From the NCBI GenBank assembly GCA_021833625.1, contig JAKBEU010000001.1:1-64000 (forward strand): a stretch of DNA of 64,000 nucleotides, in the 5' to 3' direction. The DNA is from a bacterium. GTDB taxonomy: Bacteria > Patescibacteriota > Microgenomatia > UBA1406 > GWC2-37-13. The notes beneath the pieces are model-generated. The model ran no database searches, was not told where the DNA came from, and saw only the letters and a program-made list of their open reading frames with translations. The stretch's first letter is position 1. Every line of letters starts with the position of its first letter. The translations under genes and the position numbers were made by a program. Below, in pieces: positions 14,623 to 36,453 of this stretch.

Positions 14623-14624
14623 GT

Positions 14625-15875: not shown

Positions 15876-15894
15876 AATGTTTTTAAATAAATAA

Positions 15895-16809: not shown

Positions 16810-16834
16810 AGAATGAAAATTTAATTAATAATAA

Positions 16835-17266: not shown

Positions 17267-17522
17267 TTTTTGGCTTTAGTTCAACTTGAAATTCATCCTC
17301 AAAATACATATTGAGTATGTTCGCGAATTGGTCGGGAGTACCATAGCAGTCAATTACTATTTCAAATACGTTTGGGGATAAGATTTTGCTTTTGATCATG
17401 TCAGCGGAGGAACGCGCGAGAATTGCTTTGAAAAGAAGGGGAGTGGTTAAGAAAGAGGAGCGGTTAAGCCCCTTATTATCTGTATGTGATGATTGATTAT
17501 TCTGATTTTTGTTGAACTGCAT
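17253..17522 (-). CDS. Hypothetical phage protein, 89 residues
   Basis: The N-terminus is polar and Asn/Gln/Ser-rich (MQFNKNQNNQSSHTDNKG) and probably disordered. The rest has a mixed alpha/beta pattern (FKAILARSSADMIKSKIL, FEIVIDCYGTPDQFANILN). It overlaps the small-terminase-like gene by 14 bases in a different frame. No family recognised. The 89-base spacer upstream contains GGTGTAAA, which resembles the first box of the phage promoter, but the second box is missing. Confidence 0.5.
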   Translation of the reverse strand: MQFNKNQNNQSSHTDNKGLNRSSFLTTPLLFKAILARSSADMIKSKILSPNVFEIVIDCYGTPDQFANILNMYFEDEFQVELKPKNDNK

Positions 17523-17611
17523 TTTTTACTTGCAGTTCGTTAAGCACAATAAAACTAACAGACTATTTACACCTTTGCAATAGGTAAATTAAATTATATT
17601 GTTGTGAGGCT

Positions 17612-17863
17612 TTATTTCTGTCTTTTAAGAAGTTTCGCTATTGTCTCTTCCCGTTTTTCGAGGGATTCATCAAGACGCTTTAGATATTCCATGAATCGAG
17701 AAGTGTTAGTGTCATTCTCTTCCTTATTCTTTATGACCTTTTTGTCAATCTGTCTTAGCTTCCTTAGTATGAAAGCAATCGAAGATAATACGACAGCATC
17801 GAATATAATGCCGCCGTATAAACAGTATTCAGCCCTTATTTCCCCTAATATATTGGTACTCAT
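17612..17863 (-). CDS. Small membrane protein, holin-like
   Basis: The 83-residue protein has one clear hydrophobic helix (residues about 15-33, LYGGIIFDAVVLSSIAFIL) followed by a long charged helix (LRQIDKKVIKNKEENDTNTS, then LKRLDESLEKREETIAKLL). One membrane span plus a charged C-terminal coiled segment fits several small phage holins or holin-associated proteins. The first codon overlaps the last codon of the integrase (ATGA type). No endolysin is next to it, so the lysis role is uncertain; it could also be a superinfection-exclusion membrane protein. Confidence 0.55.
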   Translation of the reverse strand: MSTNILGEIRAEYCLYGGIIFDAVVLSSIAFILRKLRQIDKKVIKNKEENDTNTSRFMEYLKRLDESLEKREETIAKLLKRQK

Positions 17864-18852
17864 ACGAGTTTACTTAGAGTGGTAATTGCACGGTGCTGTT
17901 CCCTGTCCAATGATAACCATTGTACTAGTTTCAATTTTTCGTGCAAGTCGAGTTTCGGAACAAATTCCTTAATCATATTTTTGATTACCTCAAATGTTGG
18001 TTTGTAATGGGTAATGGGATTCATTTGGAGAGCAACTGCTTGATCGTCTATGTTGAGGTGTACATAGCTTTGCAGGCTGGATAAGGATGAATGACCGGAG
18101 ATCTGCTGAATAATGGAAAGAGGGATATTTGCCCGGACAAGGCTTGTGATGAGTGTATGCCGGAAGATGTGCGAAAATACACGTTTATGAATCCCTGCTG
18201 TCACTGCTCTTCGTTTCAACTCAACAGCGAACTTCTTGTCGCAGAGCTTTCCGTGTTTTGAGCCAAAGACATAATTATGGTAATAGCGGGGAAGATTGCA
18301 TATTTTGTCATATGTATACTTGCTTATCATTATTATTCTCATATGATTTGTTTTGCTGTCCCGGATGATAATCCGGTCTGGCAATACGTCCGGCTCTGGA
18401 CTCCATTTAAGATTACATAGTTCGTTTATGCGCATTCCGGTTACGGAAAGAGTATGAATTACCGCGGCATATCGTTCATTAATTACCGTGTTTTCCCGGG
18501 CGTACTTCAGTTTTACTTTTTCAAGCTTTTCAATGTCTTTCCAGGAAAGAGGATCTATATGAGGAGAAACGGAGGGAAAATAAGTATATTCATCCAAAAA
18601 GTCAAGCTTTTGGAATCGACACATATTTTTGAACATCTTTATGTAATTGTTTATGGTCGATTTCATCAGTCCTATGTCAATAAGATAAGAGATGAATTGG
18701 TTTACGGAGTCTTTATTAAAATCTTTGTTGTTTTCCTTAAACCATTTTTCTATGATGTTGAATCGGTAGTGGAGAGATTGTTTACTAGACAGGTCTATCT
18801 TACGCTCAATAAAGAGGAATGAAGAAAATGAATCCCAGGATATGAAATTCAT
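17860..18852 (-). CDS. int: Tyrosine recombinase/phage integrase
   Basis: The 330-residue site-specific recombinase carries an N-terminal SAM-like core-binding domain (residues about 8-95) and a C-terminal catalytic domain. The catalytic set is visible: Arg141 in TGMRINEL, Lys167 in the beta hairpin, His228 and Arg231 in HIFRH, His254 in SGHSS and the Tyr263 nucleophile in SYVHL. A further 60-residue helical tail follows. It is the right-most phage gene and lies next to cellular DNA, as expected for the enzyme that inserted the element. The reading frame is intact, so the prophage may still excise. It could alternatively resemble a XerC-type enzyme, but context favours integrase. Confidence 0.92.
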   Translation of the reverse strand: MNFISWDSFSSFLFIERKIDLSSKQSLHYRFNIIEKWFKENNKDFNKDSVNQFISYLIDIGLMKSTINNYIKMFKNMCRFQKLDFLDEYTYFPSVSPHIDPLSWKDIEKLEKVKLKYARENTVINERYAAVIHTLSVTGMRINELCNLKWSPEPDVLPDRIIIRDSKTNHMRIIMISKYTYDKICNLPRYYHNYVFGSKHGKLCDKKFAVELKRRAVTAGIHKRVFSHIFRHTLITSLVRANIPLSIIQQISGHSSLSSLQSYVHLNIDDQAVALQMNPITHYKPTFEVIKNMIKEFVPKLDLHEKLKLVQWLSLDREQHRAITTLSKLV

Positions 18853-19540: not shown

Positions 19541-22500
19541 ATGAAGACCAATTTGGCCCGTAAGGTCGTATCGTTCCTTTCTTCGTTATCAATTCTTCTT
19601 AACTCTTTCGCTCCTTTTGTCCTTATCACCCCTCAGACGGCATTTTCCCATGAGCCCCTTAAGAATACAATAACTTATAATAACAGCAAAGGGGTCTTTC
19701 ATTTTGAAGTCAATAATAAAGATGCGGCGGTTACGAGCGGCCCAATTTCATATTCACTTTTGTATCGGAATGAACTGACGGGACAAATACAAAACGTAAA
19801 CGGATCAACCGATTTGTCCGACTTCAACTTCGCCCGAGATATCGATGCAGCGACCTGTTCGTCAGGTGGCACCTGCGTTCCACATGTCGTCAATCAGGGA
19901 ATAATAAAGGTCAAAGTGGAGAGCGCGAATTGGTTTGACTCACAGTGGTTCAAAATCGAAAACGGAAGTCTTGTCGTAAAAGCGCAATTCAACTCGGGAG
20001 ATGTCATGGGCTTAAGCTCAGACGAGCAGAATTGGCTAAGTACTGGAGAAGGTCCTGCTCCCACTCCGACCCCGACAGTTGAGCCGACTGCAACACCGAC
20101 AGTTGAGCCCACAGCTACTCCAACCGAAGTTCCCACTCCCACAGCGACAATTATTCCGACCGCAATTCCGCAATTAGGAAACGAAGAAGTACAGGTAAAA
20201 GTCGTGAAGCTTGACGGATCATATGCTGATCCGAATCTTGTGCCTTCCACATGGACGGATAAGGCGGATTATGCGCCGACGGAAAAAGTAGTGGTGTCGG
20301 GAAAGAATTTCGTTCCAAATTACGAATATACAATAGTTATTTCTTCAAATGATGATCCTGCAGTGACGCACACCGGTACCTTTGCGGCACTTTCTGATGG
20401 TACGTTTACCTATGAATATCAACTTGACGGTCACTACAGACCGAATTATGTGGTGCAGATTAAAGACGCAACGGGAACGGTGGTTGCTAGTACGACATTT
20501 ACTGATAGTGTGTCAACGACGACGACCGTTTCAGGAGTTTCCTGTATGGCTGAGCAACCAAATCAAACGCACTTAACTTGTACAGCGCAAGACACCCCTC
20601 TTACACATGTTTCTGCGATTACAATAAATACGAGTTCAGATGGCCATAAGGGATGTAGGTATCCGGGTGACAAAGTAGACTTCACGGCTACGTGGGAATT
20701 ACAAGCAAATGCAAACGAAAGATACAATTTAGGCCTTTGGTTTGCGACAGAGGGTCAAGCAAGTGCATTAAACGGCATATGCTCAGTTACTTCACTTCCA
20801 AGCTCTCCTCCGCCTTTTTTTGATGGAGGTACCAAATGTGGTGGTATTGATAAAAACGGAACAGGAACAATCCAAGTTACTATGAGTGCTGTTTGTAATC
20901 CTGATGCAAACGGACTGCTTAGGTTACCCTATTGCTCAAGTTGGCAACAAAAAGACAACAACGGCAATGGTAATAACAATAATATAACTGCTTGCAACAG
21001 TCCGATTGATACCGTTCCAGGATCGCCATCAAAGTGTAAATGTGAAGATGGATTTACAATCGACATTCCAGTCCCCCCATCAACTATCGAGGTGGTTAAA
21101 AAAACTTCTCCACTAGACGATGGGGGGAAATTTAATCTTAAAATTAATGGAACAACGTATGCGTCAAACGTTGGAAATGGAGGAACGACGGGAAGACAAA
21201 CCGTAAGTGCTGGTAGTAATTCGATCGCAGAAGCTGCAGGCAGTGACACTGATTTAACAAACTACAGTTCTTCAGTTTTGTGTAAAGATAAGCACGGAGA
21301 TGGGACGGAAGTTACAACCAGTGGTACAAATCCATGGCCGTTAACTGCTTCTGTCGGGCAAGATATCCTATGCACCATTACAAACACTCGAAAAAATAAT
21401 GCCTCTATAACCGTAATCAAACATGCGGCTCCGCATGATTCCCAAGATTTTGAATTTACCACAACGGGCGGTTTAACTACGCCGTTTTATCTTGATGATG
21501 ATACAGATGCAACACTTCCAAACACGACGACATTCGGAAGTCTTGCGGCAGGGCCATATTCGATAACAGAATCGCCGACAACGGGTTGGAATCTAACTAA
21601 CCTCGTATGTACTGACAACGCAACGGGCGTCAGTGTCGGAAGCATTGTAGACAGTACTGCATCCCTTGCACTTGGCGCTGGTCAAAATGTTACCTGCACC
21701 TTCACAAACACACGTCAACCGAAGCTTACGTTAGTAAAGACGGTGACGAAAGATAACGGAGGAACTGCCGTTCCGACCGATTGGACACTCAGCGCCACGA
21801 GCACATCAAAAACCGCTTCGGGCAAAACGGGAGACAGCACAATTACCAATGCGTATGTTCCCGCAGGAATCTATACCTTATCCGAATCGGGAGGACCTTC
21901 AGGATATACCCCAGGAAACTGGAGCTGTGTGGGCGCAACGGTTGTCGGCTCTTCGCTTAGCTTGTCAAATGGGGATATTGCGATTTGTACGATAAATAAC
22001 GATGATAAACCAGCAACGCTTACAGTTACAAAAAGTTTCAACAAACTTTATAACGGAACATTAGGATGCAGCGATTTTTCATTTAAAGTAAACGACGGTC
22101 CATCTATTCCGTTTGAAGCAGATTGTTCAAATGACATAACGGTCAATGCAGGAACATATTCCGTCGTAGAAAATCCAGTTGACGGATATACGCCCGCTTA
22201 TACAAATTGCACAGATGTCGTAATTAGTAACGGAGGAAAAGCAACTTGTTCGATCGTGAATAATGATCTTCCTGCAACTCTTATTGTGAAAAAAATTGTC
22301 GTGAACGATAACGGAGGAACAAAAGTTGCCCAGGATTTTACATTCAAAGTAAACGGGACGGGGTCTGATATTCAATTTATCGGAACAGGTGCAACGGGAG
22401 AAGTGACTCTTACTCAAAATCAAGGTACATATTCTGTTGTTGAAAATCCCGATTCCCAATACACGACCACATACGACAATTGTTCGAGAGTACGAATTGA

Positions 22501-25500
22501 TAATGGAAAAACGGCAACGTGCACGATAACAAACGATGACAAACCTGCAACGCTGACATTAACAAAAATTGTCGATAATTTTGACGGAGGAATGAAGGGT
22601 GCGAGCGACTTCCCGGTACAGATTGACAATGTTATTTCAACATGGGGCGCTCATACGGTGAATGCAGGACCTCATACCGTTTCTGAGACATCTCAATTCG
22701 GATATACTCCATCAGCTTGGGGAGGCAGTTGTTCAGCAACAGGAGAAATAACTCTTTTGCCTGGAGAGAGCAAGTCGTGTACCATAACCAACGATGATGT
22801 TGCTCCACAATTAAAGCTTGTAAAATCCGTAGTAAACGATAATGGAGGAGGAGTACATGCGGACGGGTGGAATTTGACTGCGACGGGAACTGTTCTTGGA
22901 TTTACGGACAAAGGTGATTCGATTGATTTTCACACCGTAAAAGCAGGAGTTGTGTATACGCTTTCCGAATCAACAGTTGCAGGCTATGCATCCAGTGGAT
23001 GGTCATGTGACGGGGGTAATTTGGTTGACGGAAAAGTTACGTTATTACCCGGACAGAATGTTATCTGTACGGTAACGAATGACGACGTAGCACCAAAGCT
23101 TACGCTTATAAAAAAAGTAACAACAGACAACGGAGGAACTGCAAAGCCCGATGATTTTAATCTGACGGTGGGAGGAACATCCGTTAAATCGGGAGAAAAA
23201 AATACTTTTGCTGCCAATACTCCGTATGCGATAAATGAAACTCAACAGGACGGATACGGTTTTGTCAGCATTACGGGTGATGAAGGTTGTCCGAAAAGTC
23301 TCGGAGGCACCATTACTCTTAAGCCTGGCGATAATAAAACATGTACCATAACGAATGACGATATTGCTCCATCCCTCACTCTTAAAAAAGAAGTTAAAAA
23401 TGATAATGGAGGAAGGGCAGTTTCGACTGACTGGAAGCTTATCGCAACCGGACCTTCGACTCTTTCAGGACAAGGAATTGCGACGAGTGGTGCTACTTTT
23501 GCAGCCGGCACGTATACCTTGACCGAAAGCGGTCCGAATGGCTATACCGCCGGCCCTTGGTCTTGTACGGGAGTTGACGTGGTCGTCTCGGAAAATATAA
23601 GCAAAATTACGCTCAGTCCGGGACAAAGTACCGTTTGTACAATTACCAACGACGATATTGCGCCGAAAGTAACACTCATAAAACAAATATTGGGACGTGA
23701 GGGACTAGGAGAACTTAATTTCGGACTTACCGTTGGAGGCAGTGCAGTTACATCAGGAATTCCAATAGAAGTAAGGGCGAATACTCCTATTTCACTGAAT
23801 GAAAATGGGTTGCCCGGATACCAGTTTGTCGCGATACACGGAACTGGAGAAGGTGATCAATGTCCAGAAGTATTAGGCGGCACCGTAACGCTGAGTGAAG
23901 GGCAAAACGTATCGTGCACAATAACCAATCAATATGTGCCCGCAGAGTTGACGATTGCAAAATACAACACGACATGGCCCAATACAACGACCCCTGGAGG
24001 CGAAGTGCAGTATACGCTCAAATTGAAAGTATCAAAGAATAATATCAACAACTTGCTGGTGGTAGACCTTCCGGCAAACGGATTCAAGTACAAGCCGGGA
24101 AGCTATCACGTAACCATCGGAGGAGTGGATGCAACGGCTTCAATTGCTGAACCGCAATATCACTCACCAGGACAATGGAAACTAGGCGATATCAATCTAG
24201 GGGAGAACGATGAAGTTGAAATACTTCTAAGTTACACAGCAACGGTTGATCCAAACCAGAAGCCGGGATTGTATAAAGACCTTGCGTGGGCGTATGGGTC
24301 ACAAGCAGGGATAAATGCCGACTCAACCCGCCTTCTTGCTTCATCGACTGATGCAGGAACCTCCGATCCGGGAGTTATCACGGACCAGTTTGTAGGCTCG
24401 AAAGTGGCAGTTAACAAGGAGACACAAAATTCGACTTCCGTCAATGTGGTGACAAAGCAGACGTCAACGGGAGAAGTATTAGGCGCCTCAACAAATCTAC
24501 CAAGCACAGGAGCATCAACTGTTTGGGCGTATATCATTTCATTATTAATAGGACTTGGATCACTTAGTATTTTTATGGGAATAGCACTAAAAAAAAGACT
24601 GTTTAAAAAAATAACCCTGTTTTCGATGGCTTTGCTGCTTGTCGCAAGCGTATTCGCTGTTCCACATGCAGTTCAGGCGGCAGACAGCGATCTTACCATC
24701 CGCATTTCCGAACCTAAAACGCCCATTAATCAAACATTTGACCTTATCTTTGTTGCGCTTGATATGCAGCAAACAAGACCGCTTACGGTGAAGTGTTACA
24801 AGAAAGGTCCGTCAGACGGAGCGTACAGTCAGTTTGGTTCGGATATCGCAGTTATTGCAGGAGGCAATTCGGGTAAGTGTGATATCACCGATTCGCTGCT
24901 TTCACAAAAGGGCACGTACTATTTCTATACCACCGTCGAAGCAGATTTAGGTCCCGTTGCGAGTCAAACCGTTGCCGTTGATTACAACAGCACGGACGGT
25001 CCCGGAACGCCGACTAACTATGCAAAAGACCATATTTCGTCCTGCCAAAACAAAATATCGTTTAAGACCTCAGATGACGGAGGGAAAACGGTAAAAGTAG
25101 AGGTGTATCGAAATGAGAATACAAGCTTTGGAGTGGATTCAAGCAATAGGGTTTCATCAATCGGGATAGGATCAAACACCGACGGAAGCTATACCGATAC
25201 GGTGCCTGATTGTAATAAAACATATTACTATGTTATCCGCGCGTTTGATATTGCAGGAAACGGCTCGGGAGTAATTGGAGACAGTGTTGTAACAATAACG
25301 AATTCTTCAACAACCACAACGACAACAACAGCCGCAGCGGGAGGAGCGATTCCCGTTGCCGGAGGGAATATCCCAGGTGAAGCATCAGTTCTGGGAGAAG
25401 AAACATCCGCAACCAAGGAAGCGAAAGCGCAAGGCGAAGTATTAGGCCAGAAAGCAGAGGTACAGAAAAAATCGGTCGGCTCGAATATACTGAGTGTATT

Positions 25501-25618
25501 GGCCGATAAAAAAATGAGACCATGGTATATCGCAATTGCCTTATTAGCGGTTGGAATAATCGGATATGTCATCTATAAAAAAAGAAATCAAAACGAAACA
25601 GAAACACCGCACCTTTAA
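19541..25618 (+). CDS. Giant surface protein, ten SpaA-like repeats, internal LPSTG
   Basis: 2025 residues. A signal peptide (1 to about 37) and a Pro/Thr linker (about 175-215) lead to beta domains. Ten SpaA/prealbumin-like repeats of 85-105 residues follow at about 514-1465. Most keep Lys in strand 1 (LTLVKK), Glu in YTLSES and Asn in CTITNDD, the set that forms isopeptide bonds in SpaA domains, plus two Cys. A DUF11-like domain (about 1466-1610) precedes LPSTG (1653-1657), a membrane helix and KKRLFKK. The chain does not stop there. A second signal-like helix begins near Met1679 (LFSMALLLVASVFAV, ending AVQA), followed by two more beta domains, a Thr run and a last membrane helix with a KKR tail. 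The sortase gene overlaps its 3' end. It is probably a cell-surface stalk or adhesin. Confidence 0.85.
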   Translation: MKTNLARKVVSFLSSLSILLNSFAPFVLITPQTAFSHEPLKNTITYNNSKGVFHFEVNNKDAAVTSGPISYSLLYRNELTGQIQNVNGSTDLSDFNFARDIDAATCSSGGTCVPHVVNQGIIKVKVESANWFDSQWFKIENGSLVVKAQFNSGDVMGLSSDEQNWLSTGEGPAPTPTPTVEPTATPTVEPTATPTEVPTPTATIIPTAIPQLGNEEVQVKVVKLDGSYADPNLVPSTWTDKADYAPTEKVVVSGKNFVPNYEYTIVISSNDDPAVTHTGTFAALSDGTFTYEYQLDGHYRPNYVVQIKDATGTVVASTTFTDSVSTTTTVSGVSCMAEQPNQTHLTCTAQDTPLTHVSAITINTSSDGHKGCRYPGDKVDFTATWELQANANERYNLGLWFATEGQASALNGICSVTSLPSSPPPFFDGGTKCGGIDKNGTGTIQVTMSAVCNPDANGLLRLPYCSSWQQKDNNGNGNNNNITACNSPIDTVPGSPSKCKCEDGFTIDIPVPPSTIEVVKKTSPLDDGGKFNLKINGTTYASNVGNGGTTGRQTVSAGSNSIAEAAGSDTDLTNYSSSVLCKDKHGDGTEVTTSGTNPWPLTASVGQDILCTITNTRKNNASITVIKHAAPHDSQDFEFTTTGGLTTPFYLDDDTDATLPNTTTFGSLAAGPYSITESPTTGWNLTNLVCTDNATGVSVGSIVDSTASLALGAGQNVTCTFTNTRQPKLTLVKTVTKDNGGTAVPTDWTLSATSTSKTASGKTGDSTITNAYVPAGIYTLSESGGPSGYTPGNWSCVGATVVGSSLSLSNGDIAICTINNDDKPATLTVTKSFNKLYNGTLGCSDFSFKVNDGPSIPFEADCSNDITVNAGTYSVVENPVDGYTPAYTNCTDVVISNGGKATCSIVNNDLPATLIVKKIVVNDNGGTKVAQDFTFKVNGTGSDIQFIGTGATGEVTLTQNQGTYSVVENPDSQYTTTYDNCSRVRIDNGKTATCTITNDDKPATLTLTKIVDNFDGGMKGASDFPVQIDNVISTWGAHTVNAGPHTVSETSQFGYTPSAWGGSCSATGEITLLPGESKSCTITNDDVAPQLKLVKSVVNDNGGGVHADGWNLTATGTVLGFTDKGDSIDFHTVKAGVVYTLSESTVAGYASSGWSCDGGNLVDGKVTLLPGQNVICTVTNDDVAPKLTLIKKVTTDNGGTAKPDDFNLTVGGTSVKSGEKNTFAANTPYAINETQQDGYGFVSITGDEGCPKSLGGTITLKPGDNKTCTITNDDIAPSLTLKKEVKNDNGGRAVSTDWKLIATGPSTLSGQGIATSGATFAAGTYTLTESGPNGYTAGPWSCTGVDVVVSENISKITLSPGQSTVCTITNDDIAPKVTLIKQILGREGLGELNFGLTVGGSAVTSGIPIEVRANTPISLNENGLPGYQFVAIHGTGEGDQCPEVLGGTVTLSEGQNVSCTITNQYVPAELTIAKYNTTWPNTTTPGGEVQYTLKLKVSKNNINNLLVVDLPANGFKYKPGSYHVTIGGVDATASIAEPQYHSPGQWKLGDINLGENDEVEILLSYTATVDPNQKPGLYKDLAWAYGSQAGINADSTRLLASSTDAGTSDPGVITDQFVGSKVAVNKETQNSTSVNVVTKQTSTGEVLGASTNLPSTGASTVWAYIISLLIGLGSLSIFMGIALKKRLFKKITLFSMALLLVASVFAVPHAVQAADSDLTIRISEPKTPINQTFDLIFVALDMQQTRPLTVKCYKKGPSDGAYSQFGSDIAVIAGGNSGKCDITDSLLSQKGTYYFYTTVEADLGPVASQTVAVDYNSTDGPGTPTNYAKDHISSCQNKISFKTSDDGGKTVKVEVYRNENTSFGVDSSNRVSSIGIGSNTDGSYTDTVPDCNKTYYYVIRAFDIAGNGSGVIGDSVVTITNSSTTTTTTTAAAGGAIPVAGGNIPGEASVLGEETSATKEAKAQGEVLGQKAEVQKKSVGSNILSVLADKKMRPWYIAIALLAVGIIGYVIYKKRNQNETETPHL

Positions 25619-26204
25619 TCCGGAGCAGATACTATTGTGGGTGGGAGCTGTGATGTTGGTGTGCGGCGTCTTTCTTTTTCTTCTCACGTTTTTTCCTGTC
25701 ATCAAACAGGAAGTTATATATCGAATAGAGGCAAACACGACGTCTCAAAGTAAAAAGATTGTTCCAGTGAACAGCGAATTCGGTATCGTCATTCCGAAGA
25801 TACAGGCGAATGCAAAAGTTGTTGCAAACGTTGACCCGCTAAATGAAAAGGTGTATCAGCAGGCGCTCACCCAAGGGGTTGCCCATGCGCGTGGAACGGT
25901 CCTTCCCGGGCAGACGGGTAACACCTTTATCTTCGCTCACTCAGCAGGGAACTGGTACGTTGCAAACCAGTACAACGCGGTATTTTACCTGTTGTATAAG
26001 CTCGTCAAAGGAGACGCGATTGATATCTTTTATCAGAACAAACAATATACGTATAAGGTCAGAGAGGTGAAATATATTGATGCAAAAGAGGTGAACTATC
26101 TGTCGCCGAAAACGGATGGGTGGAAGACACTTACTCTCATGACCTGCTGGCCGCCTGGCACCACTATGAAGCGCCTCATCGTCATCGCCGATATCCAGGA
26201 ATGA
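25566..26204 (+). CDS. Sortase (class D/E-like)
   Basis: The 212-residue membrane-bound transpeptidase has an N-terminal membrane helix (residues about 22-44, LLWVGAVMLVCGVFLFLLTF) and a sortase barrel. The catalytic residues are His125 in FIFAHSAG, Cys194 in LTLMTCWPPG and Arg203 in TTMKRLIV. Length and the TCWPPGT motif suit class D or E enzymes. It overlaps the 3' end of the giant LPSTG protein gene by 53 bases in another frame, so the two are surely one operon and substrate and enzyme. It should cut between Thr and Gly of LPSTG and link the N-terminal part to an acceptor in the envelope. Confidence 0.9.
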   Translation: MSSIKKEIKTKQKHRTFNPEQILLWVGAVMLVCGVFLFLLTFFPVIKQEVIYRIEANTTSQSKKIVPVNSEFGIVIPKIQANAKVVANVDPLNEKVYQQALTQGVAHARGTVLPGQTGNTFIFAHSAGNWYVANQYNAVFYLLYKLVKGDAIDIFYQNKQYTYKVREVKYIDAKEVNYLSPKTDGWKTLTLMTCWPPGTTMKRLIVIADIQE

Positions 26205-28497
26205 AAAATTTGAAGACCTTAATTATCGAGTCCTTGATAATCAGAATGAATATCGGTCCCTTTGTGCCGCCAAAATGCCGCGACCTTAAAGGTCGCGGGT
26301 TCCGAGTCGGCAAAGGCTTAGCTGTGGGTATGGGTTTATGAGTTGGTTTTACAATAGGTTTTAAAGTGGGTGAAGGAGTTTTTGTTGGAACGAGCGTAGG
26401 AGCTGGTGTAGGTGTTGGCGATGGGGGAATGTACTCAGCGACGTTTCCGCCATCAGTCGTGTTAAATGAAATTATAAAACTATCCTTCGAGCCAACAGAT
26501 GATATTTTTTTAAATTGAAACCATTTATCACTACTTTCTCCAATCAACCATACACTGGCTGTATATTCGCCATTTCCTACCCCATTTATGTTTAGCCTGT
26601 ATTCTCCACTTTGCGTATTTTGCATCCAGATCATTCCTTCGTCTTCCTTTATAAATTGTCCGTTATGTTCTATTTCCATTGTGGCGGAAGATTGAATAAA
26701 CGCTAAAATTGCTGGAAAAATCTGCGTTGATTTTCCGTTTGGAATTTCACTATCTTGAACGTTTATATTAAGTGAAGAAAGTATTGACTTAATATTTTCC
26801 TTTGAAAAAATTATCTCTCCATGATTTGATAAGGGAGCCGGCGTGATTTGATTTAGAGAGCTTTTAAGTAAAACTATTCCGTCACCATCCTCTTGCCAGG
26901 AGCTAAGTGGATGACCATCTTGATATATATTTTGTAGTTTATCTAAAGGAGTTTGTTCTCCAAGAATATAACCGGCGTCTGTTTGATGACTAGCCCCCCC
27001 GATATGGAGTTGTAAAATAGAGGAGGTAAGCGAAGTATTTATAACACCCGTATTTCCAAGAACGCTGTCAAGCGTCAACCCGTTTTCATTTTTCAGATAG
27101 GGAAACATAGGAAGAAGGTCTTTAAGGACAGGAAAAGTTCGCGAGATAGTATCCTTATCGTTTTCAATTATGGACTTATTCAATAAGAGAATTATTTTTT
27201 CTGCCAACCATATAAGATTATTCTGACGATCAATTTCTCCACCCGCAAGGGGTTTATATGATTGAGCAGCTCCTAAAAGCGGTGAGCCCGCTGTGACGAT
27301 GTTTTTAATAGGTTTTGTATTATTTTTTTGCGCATACAGTTGTGCGATATTTCCTCCAAGAGAATGTCCTATTAATTGAACCGGAAGGTAGGGATGAGTG
27401 ATCCAAATATTTTTATTGATAAACTGATCTAGGTTGTTAACTGTTATTGCAAGAGGAGCACGCCAATCGTAAGGAAACACAAAGTAGCTGTCATTTAAAA
27501 TCCTCCCTTTGTTTTCGAGAGTCTTTTGTAATGCTTCATATTCCAATACGGCAGGATTTAATTTCCAAGTATCGAATGCAACGTTTTCATTGTGTAATAT
27601 CGCATTTCCATTCCACGATGCAAACATTCCCGGGATAATAACGATTGGGTAATTGGGCTTTGTAATAGTTGTGTTTGCCGCCAGGCCGACGTGATAACCG
27701 GTTTCATTGGGGAGAGTTCCATATAACCACAAATCGTTTCCCACCTGAATGGGAGATGGGTCTCGTAGTGGACTATTTATTATATGTCGATTCGTCCAAA
27801 CCGTATTACATCCATTAAGGGAATCTGCTTGCTGAACTTCAAGTCCTGCGGGCGATTGGAAAAATAAATAAAATACGTTGTTGTACTTTATTATGTGTTC
27901 GCTTGCTCCGGGGGCAATGAAAGGATTGTTTGCACATTTTTGCCAATTTGTTCCATCGGTTGAGGTTGCAAGTCCTATACCCCAATTTCCGGTGCCGCTC
28001 CCTGAATAAAACAAATAAGACAAATTATTTTCCTCAATGACAGACGGACAAGAAAGATTGGTTCCTTCCCAAGATGAATCGGCTTTTAGAATTTCTTTTT
28101 CCGATCCGGTTTCAAACGTAACTCCGTCATTACTCGTTGATTCCCACAATGATATATTTCCAAAATCAGAAGATGCAAAAAATAGATTGTATTTACCATC
28201 TTCAAGGACCACATAAGGATCACTTGCATTTTGTTTATTAGTTACTTGAGTGTCCTTTGCATCAAACCAATCGATGCCATTGGAAGACTTGACTGACTTA
28301 ATTCGGTATTGAGGCGCTATATCTGCATACCACAACGTATAGTAGTTATTTTCCTGTAAAACGAAGGGTTGTACGGCCCCTATGTGTGACGTTTCTTTTT
28401 GGATAACGGGGTTATTTTGATAAGGAATAAATTCTTGGGCTTGAGCAGAGAATGGAGTGATGATAAGGGTTAGAATGAAGAGGGCAATAAACATCAT
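26182..28497 (-). CDS. Secreted protein: propeller domain plus alpha/beta-hydrolase (lipase-like)
   Basis: 771 residues. After a signal peptide (1-20, ending AQA), residues about 25-280 contain repeated SSNGIDWF, TSNDGVTFE and TSTDGTNWQ blades, typical of five-bladed GH43/GH32-like propellers. Residues about 285-600 form an alpha/beta-hydrolase of the lecithin:cholesterol acyltransferase or triacylglycerol lipase type. It has the oxyanion region PIVIIPGMFASW, FPYDWRAPL and the nucleophile Ser379 in GHSLGG. A beta domain and a Pro/Thr/Lys linker follow. The end, NPRPLRSRHFGG, is encoded by a dispersed palindromic repeat. Its 3' end overlaps the convergent sortase gene by 23 bases. An extracellular esterase bound to glycan is likely; the substrate is unknown. 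Confidence 0.75.
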   Translation of the reverse strand: MMFIALFILTLIITPFSAQAQEFIPYQNNPVIQKETSHIGAVQPFVLQENNYYTLWYADIAPQYRIKSVKSSNGIDWFDAKDTQVTNKQNASDPYVVLEDGKYNLFFASSDFGNISLWESTSNDGVTFETGSEKEILKADSSWEGTNLSCPSVIEENNLSYLFYSGSGTGNWGIGLATSTDGTNWQKCANNPFIAPGASEHIIKYNNVFYLFFQSPAGLEVQQADSLNGCNTVWTNRHIINSPLRDPSPIQVGNDLWLYGTLPNETGYHVGLAANTTITKPNYPIVIIPGMFASWNGNAILHNENVAFDTWKLNPAVLEYEALQKTLENKGRILNDSYFVFPYDWRAPLAITVNNLDQFINKNIWITHPYLPVQLIGHSLGGNIAQLYAQKNNTKPIKNIVTAGSPLLGAAQSYKPLAGGEIDRQNNLIWLAEKIILLLNKSIIENDKDTISRTFPVLKDLLPMFPYLKNENGLTLDSVLGNTGVINTSLTSSILQLHIGGASHQTDAGYILGEQTPLDKLQNIYQDGHPLSSWQEDGDGIVLLKSSLNQITPAPLSNHGEIIFSKENIKSILSSLNINVQDSEIPNGKSTQIFPAILAFIQSSATMEIEHNGQFIKEDEGMIWMQNTQSGEYRLNINGVGNGEYTASVWLIGESSDKWFQFKKISSVGSKDSFIISFNTTDGGNVAEYIPPSPTPTPAPTLVPTKTPSPTLKPIVKPTHKPIPTAKPLPTRNPRPLRSRHFGGTKGPIFILIIKDSIIKVFKFFIPGYRR
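26265..26312. repeat. Bipartite palindromic repeat, copy 1 (in coding sequence)
   Basis: Inner arms CGCGACC/GGTCGCG around TTAAA, outer arms TGCCG/CGGCA. It lies near the 3' end of the lipase-like gene and is read there as RPLRSR. Confidence 0.8.
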
Positions 28498-29460: not shown

Positions 29461-29628
29461 ATCAGGACTTTAATCAAAAAACATAAATAATGCAGCGGAT
29501 TATAAACAACATTTTTCTTATCTGGGCCGTTGGGACAGTAAATAAAATGCATTAGCGGTGTAGACTTAATTTTCGTTCTGATGAGGTAATGAGCTTTCCT
29601 GCTACAATGATTGGATTGTTATAAAACA

Positions 29629-30387
29629 ATGGGTGCAACAATTCTGATTTTTTTTATTGCCGTCGTTTGCGAATTTATCGATAGCTCGCTTGGAATGATG
29701 TACGGAACAATTTTGTCGCCGGTCTTGATATTGGCGGGTTACAATCCAAAGCTTGTTGTTCCTGCAATTCTTATTTCACAAGCCGTTGGCGGCGCTGTTG
29801 CTTCCTGGCGTCACCACTCGCTGAAGAATGCGCACATTTTCGATAAGGATTCCGAAGACTTCAAAGTAACTCTCCTTATCGCCTCTTTAGGTGTTGTTGC
29901 GACTCTCGTTGGAGCGTTTCTCGGGGCGAGCATTATCCCTAGTACCTGGCTTAAAAACTATATTGGTATTTTGTGTGTTGTCATGGGGGCAAGCATTTTG
30001 CTGAAAATTTCGTTTCAGTTTACCTGGGGGAAAATGGTCATCTTAGGGATAGTGAGCGCTTTTAATAAGGCAATTTCCGGCGGGGGATATGGACCATTGA
30101 TGTCGTCAGGACAGATTGTTATCGGGCGGGAAAGCAAGAATTCGATTGTTGTTACCGATTTTGCCGAAGTTCCCATTTGTCTGTTCAGTTTTGCAATGTG
30201 GGTTTGGATAAACAAATGGCCAAGTTCACCCCTCATCTATATTCTTCCAGTGGGCGCTGCTATTGGCGGATATTTGGGACCGATTCTTCTGAAGAAAAAC
30301 AAATCAAAAAAAAGAATTGCCCAAATAGTGGGAGCACTTGCTTTCATTCTTGGCGTTGCCGTTCTTACTCTTGGAGTCAAAAGCTGA
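29629..30387 (+). CDS. TauE/SafE-family permease
   Basis: This is an integral membrane protein of 252 residues with about seven to eight hydrophobic helices. The family pattern is visible in CEFIDSSLGMMYGTILSPVL, VPAILISQAVGGAVASW and the second half SAFNKAISGGGYGPLMSSGQ, which repeats the first half as in TauE/SafE exporters. These carry sulfite, sulfonates or related small anions across the membrane. A TTG at 29611 could extend it by six residues, but a -10-like TACAAT (29606-29611) overlaps that codon, so the ATG at 29629 is preferred. The real substrate is unknown. Confidence 0.8.
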   Translation: MGATILIFFIAVVCEFIDSSLGMMYGTILSPVLILAGYNPKLVVPAILISQAVGGAVASWRHHSLKNAHIFDKDSEDFKVTLLIASLGVVATLVGAFLGASIIPSTWLKNYIGILCVVMGASILLKISFQFTWGKMVILGIVSAFNKAISGGGYGPLMSSGQIVIGRESKNSIVVTDFAEVPICLFSFAMWVWINKWPSSPLIYILPVGAAIGGYLGPILLKKNKSKKRIAQIVGALAFILGVAVLTLGVKS

Positions 30388-30395: not shown

Positions 30396-30437
30396 ACGTG
30401 GCCAAGGGCGCGACCGTAAGGATCGCGGGATACCGGC
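30396..30437. repeat. Bipartite palindromic repeat, copy 2 (intergenic)
   Basis: The inner arms CGCGACC/GGATCGCG are imperfect, with loop GTAA. The outer arms are GTGGCC and GGCAC. It lies between the permease stop and the -10 box of the next gene. Confidence 0.65.
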
Positions 30438-30450
30438 ACGGACGGTTTAT

Positions 30451-30464: not shown

Positions 30465-31286
30465 ATGCAATGCCGGGTGTGCAAGTCCAAACATATTAAA
30501 TTCCACAGGGTGGTAAGCGGTGTCCCTATTTATCAATGTCAGTCCTGTGACATTGCATTCGTACACGCCGATACTCCCCGAAAAAAAACTTCGCATATTT
30601 ATTCATTTAAGGATTATCAAAAAAGGGAAGATCAGTTCAGAAAAAGATATGAGAAAACTCTCCATTTATTGAAAAAACACACAACAGGGAAAAAAGTTCT
30701 GGAAGTAGGGGCGGGATTCGGCCTTCTCAGCAGCATTTTATCCGGTAATGGATACGAAGTGGATGCTCTTGAACCCGTTGTAACTCCCCATTATCTGAAA
30801 AAAGCACCGGTCTATATCATACACAAGCCATTCGATTCATTTGCTAAGAAAACGACAAAAAAGTATGATGCGATAATTTTATACGATGTCTTTGAGCATG
30901 TTGATGATCCCAAAGCAACTGTCGCATTGTTTTCAAAACTTCTGGCAAAAAATGGAATCGTTTTTATTCAGACCCCAAACTATTTGAGTTTGATGGCGAA
31001 AATGGTAAAGGACTGGTCCTGGTGGATGATAGAGGATCATCGGTTTTTTTACAGCAAAAAATCTTTTGAGTTATTATTCTCAAAGCGAAGTTGGAAAAAA
31101 CTTGTTTATAACACCTATGAAGAATGGCCGGATTTTAAGAAAAATCTGGACGGAAACTTCGGTACCGACAAAATGGAAAAATACATCTTTTTCGGTTGGT
31201 GGATCCCGAGTTATTTCTTATTACGGAGAGTTATGTGGTCGCTTGGTAGGGGAGGGCTTATTACCATTATTTATCAAAAGAATTAA
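30465..31286 (+). CDS. SAM methyltransferase with N-terminal zinc ribbon
   Basis: The 273-residue protein has a four-Cys ribbon (QCRVCKSKHIKFH, then QCQSCDIAFVH) and a class I methyltransferase core (GKKVLEVGAGFGLLSSILSG, acidic VDALEP, then YDAIILYDVFEHVDDPKATV and NGIVFIQTPNY). It shares layout and several motifs with the minus-strand methyltransferase at 28.5-29.5 kb, so the two are distant paralogues within one glycan locus. Bordering palindromic repeats on both sides mark it as a separate transcription unit. The target is probably a sugar or polyprenyl-linked intermediate; this is inferred from context. Confidence 0.8.
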   Translation: MQCRVCKSKHIKFHRVVSGVPIYQCQSCDIAFVHADTPRKKTSHIYSFKDYQKREDQFRKRYEKTLHLLKKHTTGKKVLEVGAGFGLLSSILSGNGYEVDALEPVVTPHYLKKAPVYIIHKPFDSFAKKTTKKYDAIILYDVFEHVDDPKATVALFSKLLAKNGIVFIQTPNYLSLMAKMVKDWSWWMIEDHRFFYSKKSFELLFSKRSWKKLVYNTYEEWPDFKKNLDGNFGTDKMEKYIFFGWWIPSYFLLRRVMWSLGRGGLITIIYQKN

Positions 31287-31326
31287 TGCCGCAAAGGGCG
31301 CGACCTTTAAGGTCGCGGCGCGGCAT
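31286..31326. repeat. Bipartite palindromic repeat, copy 3 (intergenic)
   Basis: The inner perfect palindrome is CGCGACCTTTAAGGTCGCG (31299-31317) and the outer arms are ATGCCGC/GCGGCAT. It begins at the stop codon of the methyltransferase gene and ends 25 bases before the radical SAM gene. Confidence 0.85.
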
Positions 31327-31333
31327 CCGGGCT

Positions 31334-31342
31334 TGGTATAAT
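31334..31342 (+). promoter_or_regulatory. Extended -10 promoter of the radical SAM gene
   Basis: TGGTATAAT matches the extended -10 form (TGnTATAAT), which needs no -35 box. The ATG follows eight bases later, so the mRNA is probably leaderless. Confidence 0.55.
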
Positions 31343-31350
31343 GCAATGAA

Positions 31351-32709
31351 ATGAAAGTTGTTGTTACCCGGCCACGTTATCACACCCACATCATAACTCC
31401 GCCTCTCGGGATTGGATATTTATCCTCGTACCTCAAGAGTAAAAAAATCGATTGTCAGGTCATTGACGGACTCAATTTGGATTTATCCAACAGGGAAATC
31501 GTTGCACGGGTAAGGCATGTTGATGTGGTGGGAATATCCGTCCTGTCATATTACTTTTTGGAAGCAATTGATCTTGCAAAAAAATTAAAAAAGGCCGGCA
31601 AGATTGTCGTCATCGGAGGCCCGCACGCCTCGACCCTCCCCCTTTTGACACTGCAAAAAACGGGAGCGGACTATATCGCCATAGGAGAGGGAGAAGAAGT
31701 TTTTTTTAAATTAATTAATCAGTTAAAACAGGGAAAACGAAAAAAAGATATTAAGTTAGATGGGATTATCAGCTCTTCTTATAAAAAGCCCGTCTTTGCC
31801 CCCTTTACGAAAAACTTATCATCGCTCCCCATGCCGGACTGGGATCAGATAGACCCGCTGTACTACAAGAAAGCGCCTCATGGCGGAATAGTAAGCAACT
31901 TTCCGGTTGCTCCCATGCTGACAACACGCGGATGTCCGTATGAATGCAAGTTTTGCGCTTCTCCTTTTTTATGGAAGCGGAAAATACGGTTTCGTGACCC
32001 AAGCGAAGTCGTACGGGAAATTGAATATTTGGTAAAGAAAAAAGGAGTAAAGGAAGTACAGTTTGAAGATGACAATTTTACGCTCGACAGGGCACATGCC
32101 GAAAAGGTATGCAAAGGAATTCTCAAAAAGAAAATAAAGGTTGCCTGGTGCACGCCAAACGGCATTCGGGCGGACAAAGTCGATAAGAAATTATTGACAC
32201 TGATGAAGAAGGCGGGATGCTACTCCGTTGCATTCGGAATAGAGTCGGGCAACCAAAAGATTTTGGCAAATATTCTGAAGCATGAAAAGTTGGAAATAAT
32301 AAAAAAAGCGGTAATAATGGCTCATGAGGTGGGACTCCTCACTCAGGGATTTTTTATTTTTGGACTGCCGGGCGAAACGAAAGAAACGGTTGATGAAACG
32401 ATTAATTTTGCAAAAAGCATGCCACTCGATAAAGCTCAATTTTTGCTTCTTGATATTATTCCGGGATCGGCCCTTTGGAATGAACTTAAGTTCAGAAGTA
32501 GAGTGAACTGGCGGATAAACTCGTTTCATGAAGTTTCATGGCTTCCTCCGACCATTGACAAAAAAACCCTTTCAAACGTATTGCCGAAAGCATTTCTGGG
32601 ATTTTATCTGCGGCCCAAACAGATTTTCGTTTTCCTGAAATATTTTAAACTGTCTCAATTTCCGTTTCTGCTGCGGAGGGTACGGGATTTCAAGATAATT
32701 AAAGTATAA
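31351..32709 (+). CDS. B12-binding-domain radical SAM protein
   Basis: The 452-residue enzyme has an N-terminal cobalamin-binding-like domain (residues 1 to about 140: YLSSYLKSKKIDCQVIDGLN, VVGISVLSYY, VVIGGPHAS, GEGEE). The radical SAM barrel carries the CxxxCxxC iron-sulfur site at Cys195, Cys199 and Cys202 (TRGCPYECKFCASPF), followed by QFEDDNFT, AFGIESGNQKIL and FGLPGETKET. The B12-binding domain lacks an obvious DxHxxG motif, as in many family members that bind cobalamin base-off. Such enzymes methylate unactivated carbons or phosphinates, or rearrange lipids. In this glycan locus a lipid or sugar modification is likely. The substrate is unknown. Confidence 0.85.
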   Translation: MKVVVTRPRYHTHIITPPLGIGYLSSYLKSKKIDCQVIDGLNLDLSNREIVARVRHVDVVGISVLSYYFLEAIDLAKKLKKAGKIVVIGGPHASTLPLLTLQKTGADYIAIGEGEEVFFKLINQLKQGKRKKDIKLDGIISSSYKKPVFAPFTKNLSSLPMPDWDQIDPLYYKKAPHGGIVSNFPVAPMLTTRGCPYECKFCASPFLWKRKIRFRDPSEVVREIEYLVKKKGVKEVQFEDDNFTLDRAHAEKVCKGILKKKIKVAWCTPNGIRADKVDKKLLTLMKKAGCYSVAFGIESGNQKILANILKHEKLEIIKKAVIMAHEVGLLTQGFFIFGLPGETKETVDETINFAKSMPLDKAQFLLLDIIPGSALWNELKFRSRVNWRINSFHEVSWLPPTIDKKTLSNVLPKAFLGFYLRPKQIFVFLKYFKLSQFPFLLRRVRDFKIIKV

Positions 32710-32740
32710 TGACTGAAATAACAGAGATTAGACACGTGCA

Positions 32741-34018
32741 ATGATTATATTTGTCGTTTGTTTGCTTGCATATTTATTTCTTTTGCTCTCTACTCCGCTT
32801 CTTATTTATCCGGAGTTCTTTTTTTATCCGTGGCTTATTTCAAGGGGAGCTGTTCAGTATAAGGATTTTTTTGATGATCACGGATTTTTTACCAACATTT
32901 TCTTTGCCCCGTTTGCACATAGTCTCCCACTTGTTTCGTTTATATTTATCGCTTTTGAAATCATACAGTTTGGGATTATCGCCCACCTTATCCGAAAAAA
33001 AGTAAAAAATTCGCTTGTCTATTTTATTCTTCTTATTTTGTATGTTTTATTCCAGTTTACGGTTGTTCATCAGCAGATTTGGTATGACGCTATAATGGTT
33101 TTTTTTGTTGTCGTTGCTTGGTACTTGTTTGAAAAAGAAAATGAATTTTTCGGATGGATATTTTTTGCCATTGCCACGATGGTAAAACCGACCGTCGGAT
33201 TGTTTTTACTTCCTTTTTTTATCAGGTCAAAAAATAAAAAAGGCGTGACGGTATTTTTTATCTCCTGGATTATTGCAGTCTGTTATTTTATAAGTAGGGG
33301 AGCTTTCAGCGAGCTGTGGCGGCAACTTATCCTATTTAATTTCGTATACGGAAAATCCATATATAAAACCTTTACGATAGGAATTGCTTATAAATTGTTG
33401 GCAATTATTATCGGAGGATTTTCCGTTCTTATTTTTTTTGCGGTAAAACAAAGAAGAAAAAATATTCCTCTTCTCTTAGCGGTTTTTATTTCCCTCATCT
33501 TTTTTTCGTTCGGTTTTACGAAATTGAACTTTGCACTGTTCGTTCCGTTTTTTACTCTTCTTGCCGCACATATTTTTGCTAATAAAAAAATAAACCGCTA
33601 TGTGATTATTGTTCTTTCGCTTTTTACGCTTATTATCGTTCGTGATGCATACAAGACATATATGGATTGCAGAAATAGGCAGGTGTACATCACGCGGGCA
33701 GTTGTCGATGAAGCAAAGCAGGTGGGTACATTTATCAAAGAGAAGAAGGATAAAAAAGTGCTTGTTATCGGTAACCACGTCGAACTCTATTATCTTCTCA
33801 ATGTGTTGCCGCCGGAGTTTATTCTGCTTCATTTTCCGTGGATTACTAAAGAGTATCCTCAAAAACTGAGCTTGAACGGAATTCAATATATGATAGTCCC
33901 AAAAAAATTAGGACAATATGAGTCGATCGATACAAGAACGGAAAATGAACTGCAATCAAACTATCTCCTGTCGGGACAAACTGCTACCTATATCATTTGG
34001 CAGTATAATAAGAAATAA
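32741..34018 (+). CDS. Polytopic membrane protein, GT-C-like glycosyltransferase
   Basis: 425 residues with about ten to eleven hydrophobic helices. The first periplasmic loop has RGAVQYKDFFDDHGFFTNIF, with the acidic pair typical of GT-C (ArnT/PMT/GT39-like) enzymes that use polyprenyl-phosphate sugars. A short soluble C-terminal domain follows (about 325-425). The gene is the first of a tight run of four glycan genes (2-3 base gaps or overlaps), suggesting it glycosylates a lipid carrier or surface protein outside the cell. Family level only; donor and acceptor are not known. Confidence 0.7.
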   Translation: MIIFVVCLLAYLFLLLSTPLLIYPEFFFYPWLISRGAVQYKDFFDDHGFFTNIFFAPFAHSLPLVSFIFIAFEIIQFGIIAHLIRKKVKNSLVYFILLILYVLFQFTVVHQQIWYDAIMVFFVVVAWYLFEKENEFFGWIFFAIATMVKPTVGLFLLPFFIRSKNKKGVTVFFISWIIAVCYFISRGAFSELWRQLILFNFVYGKSIYKTFTIGIAYKLLAIIIGGFSVLIFFAVKQRRKNIPLLLAVFISLIFFSFGFTKLNFALFVPFFTLLAAHIFANKKINRYVIIVLSLFTLIIVRDAYKTYMDCRNRQVYITRAVVDEAKQVGTFIKEKKDKKVLVIGNHVELYYLLNVLPPEFILLHFPWITKEYPQKLSLNGIQYMIVPKKLGQYESIDTRTENELQSNYLLSGQTATYIIWQYNKK

Positions 34019-34020
34019 CT

Positions 34021-36453
34021 ATGGACTTGACGGTACTTATCATCACGAAAAACTCAAGTTCCACGCTTGAGGCAACGCTCAAGAGCATTGTCTCTTGGGC
34101 GGACAAAATCCTGATAATAGACGACTTCTCAGTTGACGGCACAAGCGATATTGCGTATAAATATGGGTGCACTGCTATTCATAACGATGAAACAGGATTT
34201 AGTGCACAACGCGCATTTGCTCTCTCTCAAGTAAAAACGAAATGGACGCTTGTTCTGGACTGCGATGAAGTACTGACTGAAAACAATAAAAAGGAAATAG
34301 AAAATGCGATTCGGGATGAAAAGACCGCAGGGTATTATTTATACTTCCGGAATCATCTTTTTGGAAAAAAATTACTGTATGGTGAACTGCATAAAAAATT
34401 AGTTCTCTTTCAAACAAAAAAAGCAACAATTCAGCAAAGAGAGATTCATGAACAGTATGAAGTTGAGGGAGTAATTGGGGAACTAAAATCAGAGGTACTC
34501 CACTATTCATATCAGAATATTTTTCAGTTATATTCCAAGTTTTTCCGCTACAGCATTCTCCAGGCGAAACAATATAAAAAAGAAAATAAGCAATATGGAC
34601 TTCGTGAACTTTTCCTTAATCCTTGCCACATGTTTTATGCACGATTTATAAAAGATGGAGGATATAAAGATGGGATAACGCGTCTTATTCTTGACGGAGC
34701 TTTTGCAAAAATGGAGTTTTTGTCTTATTTTCTTGTCCCATTTGTCAAAACAAAAAAAAGAATTGCGGTTGATTGCGGCGGGTACGCCATAGGAGACACT
34801 GTCACAAGCGGAATAGAACGGCTCATTCAGGGAATATATAACAATGCGTTAAAAGATAATGAATACTATTGGTTTAGTTTTAACAGGAAAGCGAAAGACA
34901 GGCTCCCTTCCCGTTTTTTTTCGCAACTATGGTTGCCGATTGGTGTACTTATCAACAGATGCGATGAATTTTTGGGAGTTGCCGGAAACATTCCGTTTAT
35001 TTTACGGTTTTTTAAAATAAAGAAAATATTGTTTCTGTATGATTTTGGTTTTTTTTCCTCATCTGAGAAATATATTTCCTCGGCGAGAAGACTCCAGTCT
35101 CAGACTATTGATTCAATAAAAAGTGCTGACAAAATCATAGTGTTGCATCCGGAAATATACAAACAATTTGTTAAACTCTTTCCTGAATACGGATATAAGG
35201 CAACCGTACTTCCATCAGGCGCGGATCATTTGGAAAACGTCAAAGAAGTATCGCTTCCTATAGAAGGTAAAAAGCCAATTGCGCTGTATGTAGGGGTCGT
35301 GAAGCCTGTTAAGCAAGTAGAGATACTCCTGTCTGCCGTACCAAATGAATTTTCACTTGTTATCGCAGGACCTCAGGAAGCGGAATATGTAAAAAAACTA
35401 AGAATAGAAAAAAAGCAAAATGTGGAGCTTATTCAAAACTTCTCGGACTCCCAATTGAAATGGTTATATAAAAAAGCTAACGTCATGGTCTATGCATCGG
35501 AACATGAAGGTTTTTGTTATCCTGTTCTGGAAGCGCTCACACTTGGTCTTCCGGTAGTTGCCATAGATCTTCCGGTGTTTAAAGAATATAAAAAATATTT
35601 TCCCCACCTTACCCTTATTGCCGGTAAAGAAGAGATAAAAGAAGTATTAAAAAAAGATAATTTCAAAAAAGAGCAGACAAGCAAAGATCATCCGTATAAA
35701 TGGGGTGCTTTTGCGCAGGGCCTTGAAAAGGCGCGACCTTTAAGGTCGCGGACTTTGGCAGATAAAAGAGTTGCGTTTATCGTTATCCTCTATAAAACGC
35801 CGGAGGGGGAAAAAGAACGGTTGAAGAAAGAGATTGGTGCAATTGGGCTTAAAGACTGTTTCATTTATTGGATTGATAATTCCGATAATAAAAAAGGATA
35901 TGCTGCAGGAATTAATGAAGGTATTCGGAGGGGATTATCTGACGATTGCGAACTTTTTTTTGCCCTTAATCCTGATATTTCCCTTCGAAATATGACAAAA
36001 CAAAATCTGTTGGACGTTGCCGCGAGGTTTGACGTGTGGGGATACGCGATGAAACAGGGAAATGAAATGTATTATGGGGGAACGCTTGATAAATGGCGTC
36101 TCAGCGGAGGACTCGTGACTGATAAACCTGATGTACGATTTTCAACGGTTGATTTTGTAAGTGGTTCCGTTATGGGATTTACCCGCGAGGCCTTGCAGCG
36201 TATTGGGTTTTGGGACGAGTCGTATTTTATGTATTATGAGGACGTTGATTTTTGCATGCGGGCAAAGAGAAACGGTCTTATTGTGGGAATTGACACAGAC
36301 ACGCAGTACGAGCATTTTGAGGTTTCCCAGTATAATGAAAGGAAGGCGAGATGGATTGCAAAAAGCAGATGGAAGTTCTTTTGGAAGTATGCAAATGCCA
36401 TACAGGTCGCACGGGAACTATTCCGGTTACCTAAAACGTTATTGAACAAATAA
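34021..36453 (+). CDS. Three-module glycosyltransferase (GT2-GT4-GT2)
   Basis: 810 residues in three catalytic modules. Residues 1 to about 230 are a WaaE/KdtX-like GT2 (LTVLIITKNSSSTLEATLKS, then LVLDCDEVL). About 245-565 is a GT4/GT-B module (AVDCGGYAIGDTVTSGIERL, ALYVGVVKPVKQVEILLSAV, EHEGFCYPVLEALTLGLPVV with the EX7E motif). About 580-810 is a second GT2 of the rhamnosyltransferase type (VAFIVILYKTPEGEKERLKK, LNPDISL, FMYYEDVDFCMRAKRNG). The joint between modules 2 and 3, residues 571-577 (ARPLRSR), is encoded by a dispersed palindromic repeat, suggesting that two genes became fused there. It probably adds consecutive sugars of one repeat unit. Confidence 0.85.
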   Translation: MDLTVLIITKNSSSTLEATLKSIVSWADKILIIDDFSVDGTSDIAYKYGCTAIHNDETGFSAQRAFALSQVKTKWTLVLDCDEVLTENNKKEIENAIRDEKTAGYYLYFRNHLFGKKLLYGELHKKLVLFQTKKATIQQREIHEQYEVEGVIGELKSEVLHYSYQNIFQLYSKFFRYSILQAKQYKKENKQYGLRELFLNPCHMFYARFIKDGGYKDGITRLILDGAFAKMEFLSYFLVPFVKTKKRIAVDCGGYAIGDTVTSGIERLIQGIYNNALKDNEYYWFSFNRKAKDRLPSRFFSQLWLPIGVLINRCDEFLGVAGNIPFILRFFKIKKILFLYDFGFFSSSEKYISSARRLQSQTIDSIKSADKIIVLHPEIYKQFVKLFPEYGYKATVLPSGADHLENVKEVSLPIEGKKPIALYVGVVKPVKQVEILLSAVPNEFSLVIAGPQEAEYVKKLRIEKKQNVELIQNFSDSQLKWLYKKANVMVYASEHEGFCYPVLEALTLGLPVVAIDLPVFKEYKKYFPHLTLIAGKEEIKEVLKKDNFKKEQTSKDHPYKWGAFAQGLEKARPLRSRTLADKRVAFIVILYKTPEGEKERLKKEIGAIGLKDCFIYWIDNSDNKKGYAAGINEGIRRGLSDDCELFFALNPDISLRNMTKQNLLDVAARFDVWGYAMKQGNEMYYGGTLDKWRLSGGLVTDKPDVRFSTVDFVSGSVMGFTREALQRIGFWDESYFMYYEDVDFCMRAKRNGLIVGIDTDTQYEHFEVSQYNERKARWIAKSRWKFFWKYANAIQVARELFRLPKTLLNK
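35720..35760. repeat. Bipartite palindromic repeat, copy 4 (in coding sequence)
   Basis: The perfect inner palindrome CGCGACCTTTAAGGTCGCG is at 35732-35750. The flanking GCC...GGC arms are weak. It is translated in frame as ARPLRSR in the three-module glycosyltransferase. Confidence 0.85.

Follow-up and report, generated by a model that had tools for sequence, protein, structure and literature searches.

A small family of REP-like palindromes, some read in frame within proteins, in a Microgenomatia genome without a detectable RAYT

Among described systems, REPs and their RAYT transposases come closest to the palindrome that we report here. REPs may lie inside ORFs and supply stop codons, untagged REP-like families occur, and different REPs occupy the same recB site in two Xanthomonas species (Di Nocera 2013, PMC3733652). 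The same work describes genomes that have lost their REPtron and the loss of RAYTs by deletion in many E. coli strains, and the Rickettsia palindromic elements (RPEs) correspond in part to its CGTC-tagged REPs. According to another study, two inverted REPs invariably flank a RAYT, and RAYTs were proposed to have originated after the branching of gammaproteobacteria (Nunvar 2010, PMC2817692). In the open-access literature we found no paper that joins RAYTs or REPs with candidate phyla.

The window, a stretch of 64,000 nucleotides from the Patescibacteriota contig JAKBEU010000001.1, contains several copies of a short palindrome that an earlier note on this DNA had likened to RPEs. As an analogy the likeness is apt: in both cases palindromes are read in frame within proteins, and the genome holds no dedicated transposase flanked by them. 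The REP/RAYT class is nevertheless the nearer match, and the present element differs from RPEs in its sequence, in the lack of a CGTC tag, in that only 3-4 of its ~10 inserted-looking copies touch genes, and in that relatives of its genome possess RAYT genes with palindromes of like design on their flanks. With REPs it shares a short (20-40+ bp), imperfect, hairpin-forming and lineage-specific palindrome dispersed in one genome, copies in ORFs, the supply of a stop codon, different palindromes at the same coding site, and RAYT genes in relatives that are flanked by matching palindromes. Unlike REPs, which exceed 100 copies, it numbers only 12; its copy flanks show no common GTAG/CGTC foot, its copies form no BIME or REPIN doublets, and no RAYT was detected in its genome. 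The low number, the missing foot and the missing pairing count against a REP origin, and the few copies, the absent tag and the absent transposase make the family a variant that works like REP, not a tagged REP. We consider it likely that the element is a small, non-autonomous family of REP-like palindromes copied by a RAYT that is no longer detectable here.

The palindrome, its copies and their sites

With at most three mismatches to CGCGACCTTTAAGGTCGCG allowed on both strands, the window yields seven strand-doubled matches, against 0.02 expected in shuffles, at 26279-26297, 30409-30427, 31299-31317 and 35732-35750, a span of 9.5 kb or less. All four copies reported in the earlier note are thus present, but the one at 30409-30427 is imperfect (three mismatches, CGCGATCCTTACGGTCGCG on the minus strand); the other three carry the perfect 19-bp core CGCGACCTT(A/T)AAGGTCGCG. 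The count across the whole genome (1,095,652 bases, three contigs, 99.6% complete), proposed there as a check, brought further copies to light, 12 in total. Contig C2 holds 11 of them, at 26-338 kb (C2:26280-338176): eight have the exact core, one (275079) departs from it at a single base, and two (30410, 215729) are of the CGCGACCGTAAGGATCGCG type. The only copy on C1, at C1:327349, has G as its centre base. Two chance-like matches with three mismatches, C1:322695 (CofD) and C2:88076, were dropped as family members. All copies are single, the nearest two being ~760 bp apart, and in sampled stretches covering about half of the genome (579 kb, 53%) the palindrome is the sole dispersed non-simple repeat family among 14-mers that occur at least four times and in several places.

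Written in one direction, the unit has the form GCC-(several nt)-CGCGACCTTAAAGGTCGCG-(several nt)-GGC and measures ~37-48 bp; it folds into an inner hairpin atop outer arms, with internal loops. GCC upstream and GGC downstream within ~16 nt accompany 11 of the 12 copies, against a background of 1.3% at random and 5.9% at GC-rich positions, which bears out the two-arm structure described earlier. The core is near-identical from copy to copy, whereas the outer arms diverge. In a permutation test the arms of these copies pair no better than swapped arms (223/1000), so we claim no pairing beyond GCC/GGC. A MITE of a DDE transposon would be expected to have target-site duplications and the terminal inverted repeats of a known IS; by eye, the copy flanks show no consistent direct duplications.

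Two copies of the window are translated. Copy 1 (26265-26312, core 26279-26297, arms TGCCG/CGGCA) lies at the C-terminal end of a lipase-like alpha/beta hydrolase gene with an LCAT domain (26182-28497, minus strand), whose product contains the element in its Pro/Thr-rich tail. Copy 4 (35719-35760, core 35732-35750, weak outer arms) lies in an inter-module linker of an 810-aa glycosyltransferase (34021-36453, plus strand) with the order GT2 - GT4 - GT2-like (Pfam PF00535, PF00534, PF13632). Both are read as RPLRSR, the copy at 26279 on the minus strand and that at 35732 on the plus strand, just as the earlier note had it; its statement that one of three frames contains a stop holds for each strand, and because only two of the six frames of the element hold a stop codon, in-frame reading needs no special adaptation. 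The remaining two copies are intergenic. Copy 2 (30398-30439, imperfect core CGCGACCGTAAGGATCGCG at 30409-30427, outer GTGGCC/CCGGCAC) lies between a TauE-like gene and a methyltransferase gene (30465-31286), and copy 3 (31286-31326, core 31299-31317, arms ATGCCGC/GCGGCAT) separates the stop codon of the methyltransferase gene from a radical-SAM gene (31351-32709). Both immediately precede TATAAT-like boxes, in agreement with the position upstream of promoters that had been assigned to them.

Over the whole genome, six copies are intergenic, three lie within ORFs, one lies at a gene end and two coincide with native codons. The copy in a linker of MiaA is read through as RDLKGR, and the stop codon of RibF is supplied by the element (PRP-stop). 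The palindromes form strong hairpins, and several are found where a gene ends or directly behind its stop codon, which, together with the RibF stop, would suit independently arisen RNA hairpins that terminate transcription or take part in mRNA processing. Independent origins, however, cannot account for a 19-bp core that is near-identical at a dozen sites; the hairpins lack a U-run, several copies lie within coding sequence, and a search of Rfam gave no match to the palindrome, by which a known RNA family was rejected. We regard this explanation as highly improbable.

The two copies in native codons are of a different kind. The YchF copy (C2:324233), read as ATFKVA, and the MurL copy (C1:327349), read as RDLEGR, have exact arms and lie in conserved proteins that align to relatives without gaps (MurL was aligned against Xanthomonas and Pseudonocardia homologues). 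From these alignments they do not appear to be insertions, and we count them accordingly. The YchF homologue of another genome (L059, G021:C6:60383) has GCGACCTTCGAGGTCGC at the same codons, so that a near-identical palindrome occupies the same place in two genera with no indel, though G021 is without the family. Since a chance match of 18 bases is expected at ~5e-6 per genome (a composition estimate, before any coding constraint), the YchF and MurL copies are unexplained by plain insertion. They count against the REP-like reading, as does the clustering of 11 of the 12 copies on C2. An alternative that we hold to be unlikely is that existing sequence, such as near-palindromic codons of YchF and MurL or older palindromes of another family, was overwritten by the current core with its length unchanged; in a variant of this explanation the sites would serve a DNA-binding protein of the terminus region. 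If overwriting is true, the palindrome repertoire would turn over at fixed sites by conversion and not by insertion.

Different palindromes at corresponding sites of related genomes

The core family is peculiar to this genome: neither 95 relatives, among them both same-genus relatives (G001 and G002), nor a further 372 genomes from the class hold the core in multiple copies. Outside its own genome the 19-mer has three single matches in 257 Gb of genome contigs, approximately the chance level. Viral contigs contain none, and a phage origin of the core was rejected because it is absent from all viral contigs searched.

The window is syntenic at 27-38 kb with contig C146 of G001 and contig C141 of G002. 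Upstream of the methyltransferase gene, where the present genome reads GTGGCC-AAGGG-CGCGACCGTAAGGATCGCG-GGATACC-GGCAC, G001 has TTTAGCCTCT-AACCTGCGAGGTT-AACAGCAGGGCTTA, and G002 has a palindrome related to that of G001 with CCTGCCTGCCGGCAGGCAGG in its middle. In the glycosyltransferase linker (orthologues L089 in G001 and L088 in G002), G001 carries AGCCTTGGCAACCTCGCAGGTTAACGGAGGCT, while the related sequence of G002 encloses TCGTACCTGCCTGCCGGTAGGCAGG and is read as YLPAGRQG; the linker of the present genome is ~3 aa shorter than that of G001, and hence shows no net gain. Two of the element's sites are thus occupied by a family common to G001 and G002, with a consensus near TAGCCTCTGTTAACCT-CGC-AGGTTAACAGAGGCTA, which in G001 is a near-perfect 35-bp palindrome. 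Because G001 and G002 have palindromes there that differ from those of the present genome, the spots repeatedly host different families. For both the glycosyltransferase linker and the region upstream of the methyltransferase, the comparison of sequences suggests either that the same site was targeted repeatedly or that its palindromes turn over. Neither G001 nor G002 has the TauE-like (29611-30387) and radical-SAM (31351-32709) genes at the corresponding position, and copies 2 and 3, next to which these genes lie, may mark recombination joints.

Comparison of the orthologues of the two RPLRSR proteins, which had been recommended as a check, gave a mixed answer: the glycosyltransferase linker carries other palindromes in G001 and G002, and the lipase tail of G001 lacks the palindrome but is different throughout. 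The MiaA linker is hypervariable among orthologues. For no copy did we find a clean pair of filled and empty sites among the relatives compared. The view that insertion is tolerated in linkers fits the lipase-like protein, the glycosyltransferase and MiaA, but it does not extend to the indel-free copies in YchF and MurL.

The nesting seen in G002 would suit another explanation, namely that a 19-20-bp hairpin tip, and not the whole two-arm unit, moves and lands in, or converts, pre-existing palindromes. Two sites in G002 have CCTGCCTGCCGGCAGGCAGG, or a form that differs by one base, in the middle of an older AACC...GGTT palindrome, and G001 is without it there; in the family of the present genome, the core is near-identical across copies while the arms are divergent. 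Over many genomes the flanks of the 20-mer CCTGCCTGCCGGCAGGCAGG pair more than swapped flanks do (0/2000 permutations, 48 copies), but the excess is modest, since the second set alone gives 91/2000. The present family shows no excess pairing beyond GCC/GGC, and none of its sites was found with an empty outer palindrome. We judge movement of the tip to be doubtful. As separate observations, the CCTGCCTGCCGGCAGGCAGG palindrome occurs in 29 of the 57 genomes searched (L150-L178, L225-L244), the present genome being without it, and in G002 it is read as LPAGRQG and is nested at the centre of another palindrome at two sites (L117, L088).

The distribution among relatives also bears on the possibility that the palindrome is a protein-binding site that organises the chromosome, similar to matS, parS or Noc sites, and is kept by selection between genes as well as within them, through codon-compatible substitutions. 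Such a role would accommodate the exact-arm copies that lie without an indel in the conserved YchF and MurL. It would also agree with the position of 11 of the 12 copies at 26-338 kb of C2, around a terminus-like change of GC skew from mainly positive to mainly negative; like matS, parS and Noc sites, the palindrome occurs inside and outside genes and is regionally clustered. The motifs of chromosome-organising sites are, however, usually conserved between related species, whereas the present motif is absent from its genus-mates and from the rest of the class, and relatives have other palindromes at the same sites. Furthermore, four copies crowd into 9.5 kb of the window, and 549 kb sampled from the genome contain no canonical parS. 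This role seems to us quite unlikely.

Clustering of the copies in the terminus region (C2:26280-338176, at the turn of skew) is possible in its own right; a search for dnaA around the tentative origin, on C3, gave no match, so that the map of origin and terminus is unsure. A local flip of GC and AT skew and of gene strand at ~19 kb of the window results from a prophage-like block on the minus strand (973-18852), with genes for a phage integrase (17860-18852), a terminase large subunit (12533-13936) and a P22-like portal (10002-11831), all on the minus strand; an origin at the skew flip of 18-20 kb was rejected because the stretch is this prophage. One ORF of the prophage (15895-16809) contains a coding minisatellite of ~14 tandem 12-bp units (GGCGGCACTCCA-like) at 16063-16243. 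Positions 19541-26204 comprise a gene for a 2025-aa protein with SpaA/prealbumin-like repeats, followed directly by a sortase gene, a pair consisting of a surface adhesin and its sortase.

RAYTs in relatives and the probable origin of the family

Y1_Tnp proteins of the IS200/RAYT type, mostly ~215-240 aa long, are encoded in 43 of the 57 genomes searched. For the two that were scanned, NCBIfam REP_Tyr_transpos is the best family, far ahead of IS200, with E-values of 1.8e-22 and 9e-19 and scores that are both just under the family cut-off. At 17 of 21 RAYT loci the two flanks have a word of at least 12 nt in common, compared with 5% of swapped pairs. These words are mostly lineage-specific palindromes, and most of them are hairpins located ~70-180 bp upstream and up to ~85 bp downstream. 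The RAYT of G001 is flanked by a close variant of the very family that occupies two of the element's sites in G001 and G002. The presence of RAYTs in this lineage extends the early picture of their distribution (PMC2817692).

The design of these palindromes recurs in the present genome. By eye, an ACC...GGT apex is seen at 18 of the 21 RAYT loci and ACCT-N3-AGGT at 11 of them, and the apex of the present core, ACCT-TAA-AGGT, follows the same design; the two-arm folds look alike as well. Palindromes of the form AACCT-N3-AGGTT are multi-copy in several relatives (26 in G008, 19 in G005, 18 in G020, 11 in G017 and 7 in G001). In the genome itself, which is 99.6% complete, no Y1_Tnp protein was found, and a 16-row RAYT profile gave no match at a cut-off as loose as E <= 10. 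The palindrome set therefore looks orphaned, and its mobilising enzyme is one that we can only infer.

Taken together with the genome specificity and the 12 copies, the palindrome-flanked transposases of relatives lend good support to the earlier proposal of a mobile or self-copying type of palindrome. On the reading that we prefer, a REP-like family copied by a RAYT, a single-strand transposase of the Y1 (HUH) type would most likely have copied the hairpin. The enzyme may since have been lost from this genome, or may have acted earlier from elsewhere. Copies would persist where they are harmless, between genes, in linkers and tails, and in codons that tolerate them, and purifying selection would have shaped their present locations.

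Our data suggest that REP/RAYT systems occur in this lineage, in genomes that are small and gene-dense, and that their palindromes turn over fast between species at the same sites. They further suggest that an orphan palindrome set can outlast its enzyme, even inside proteins. The indel-free copies in the conserved YchF and MurL raise a testable question on how such repeats move.
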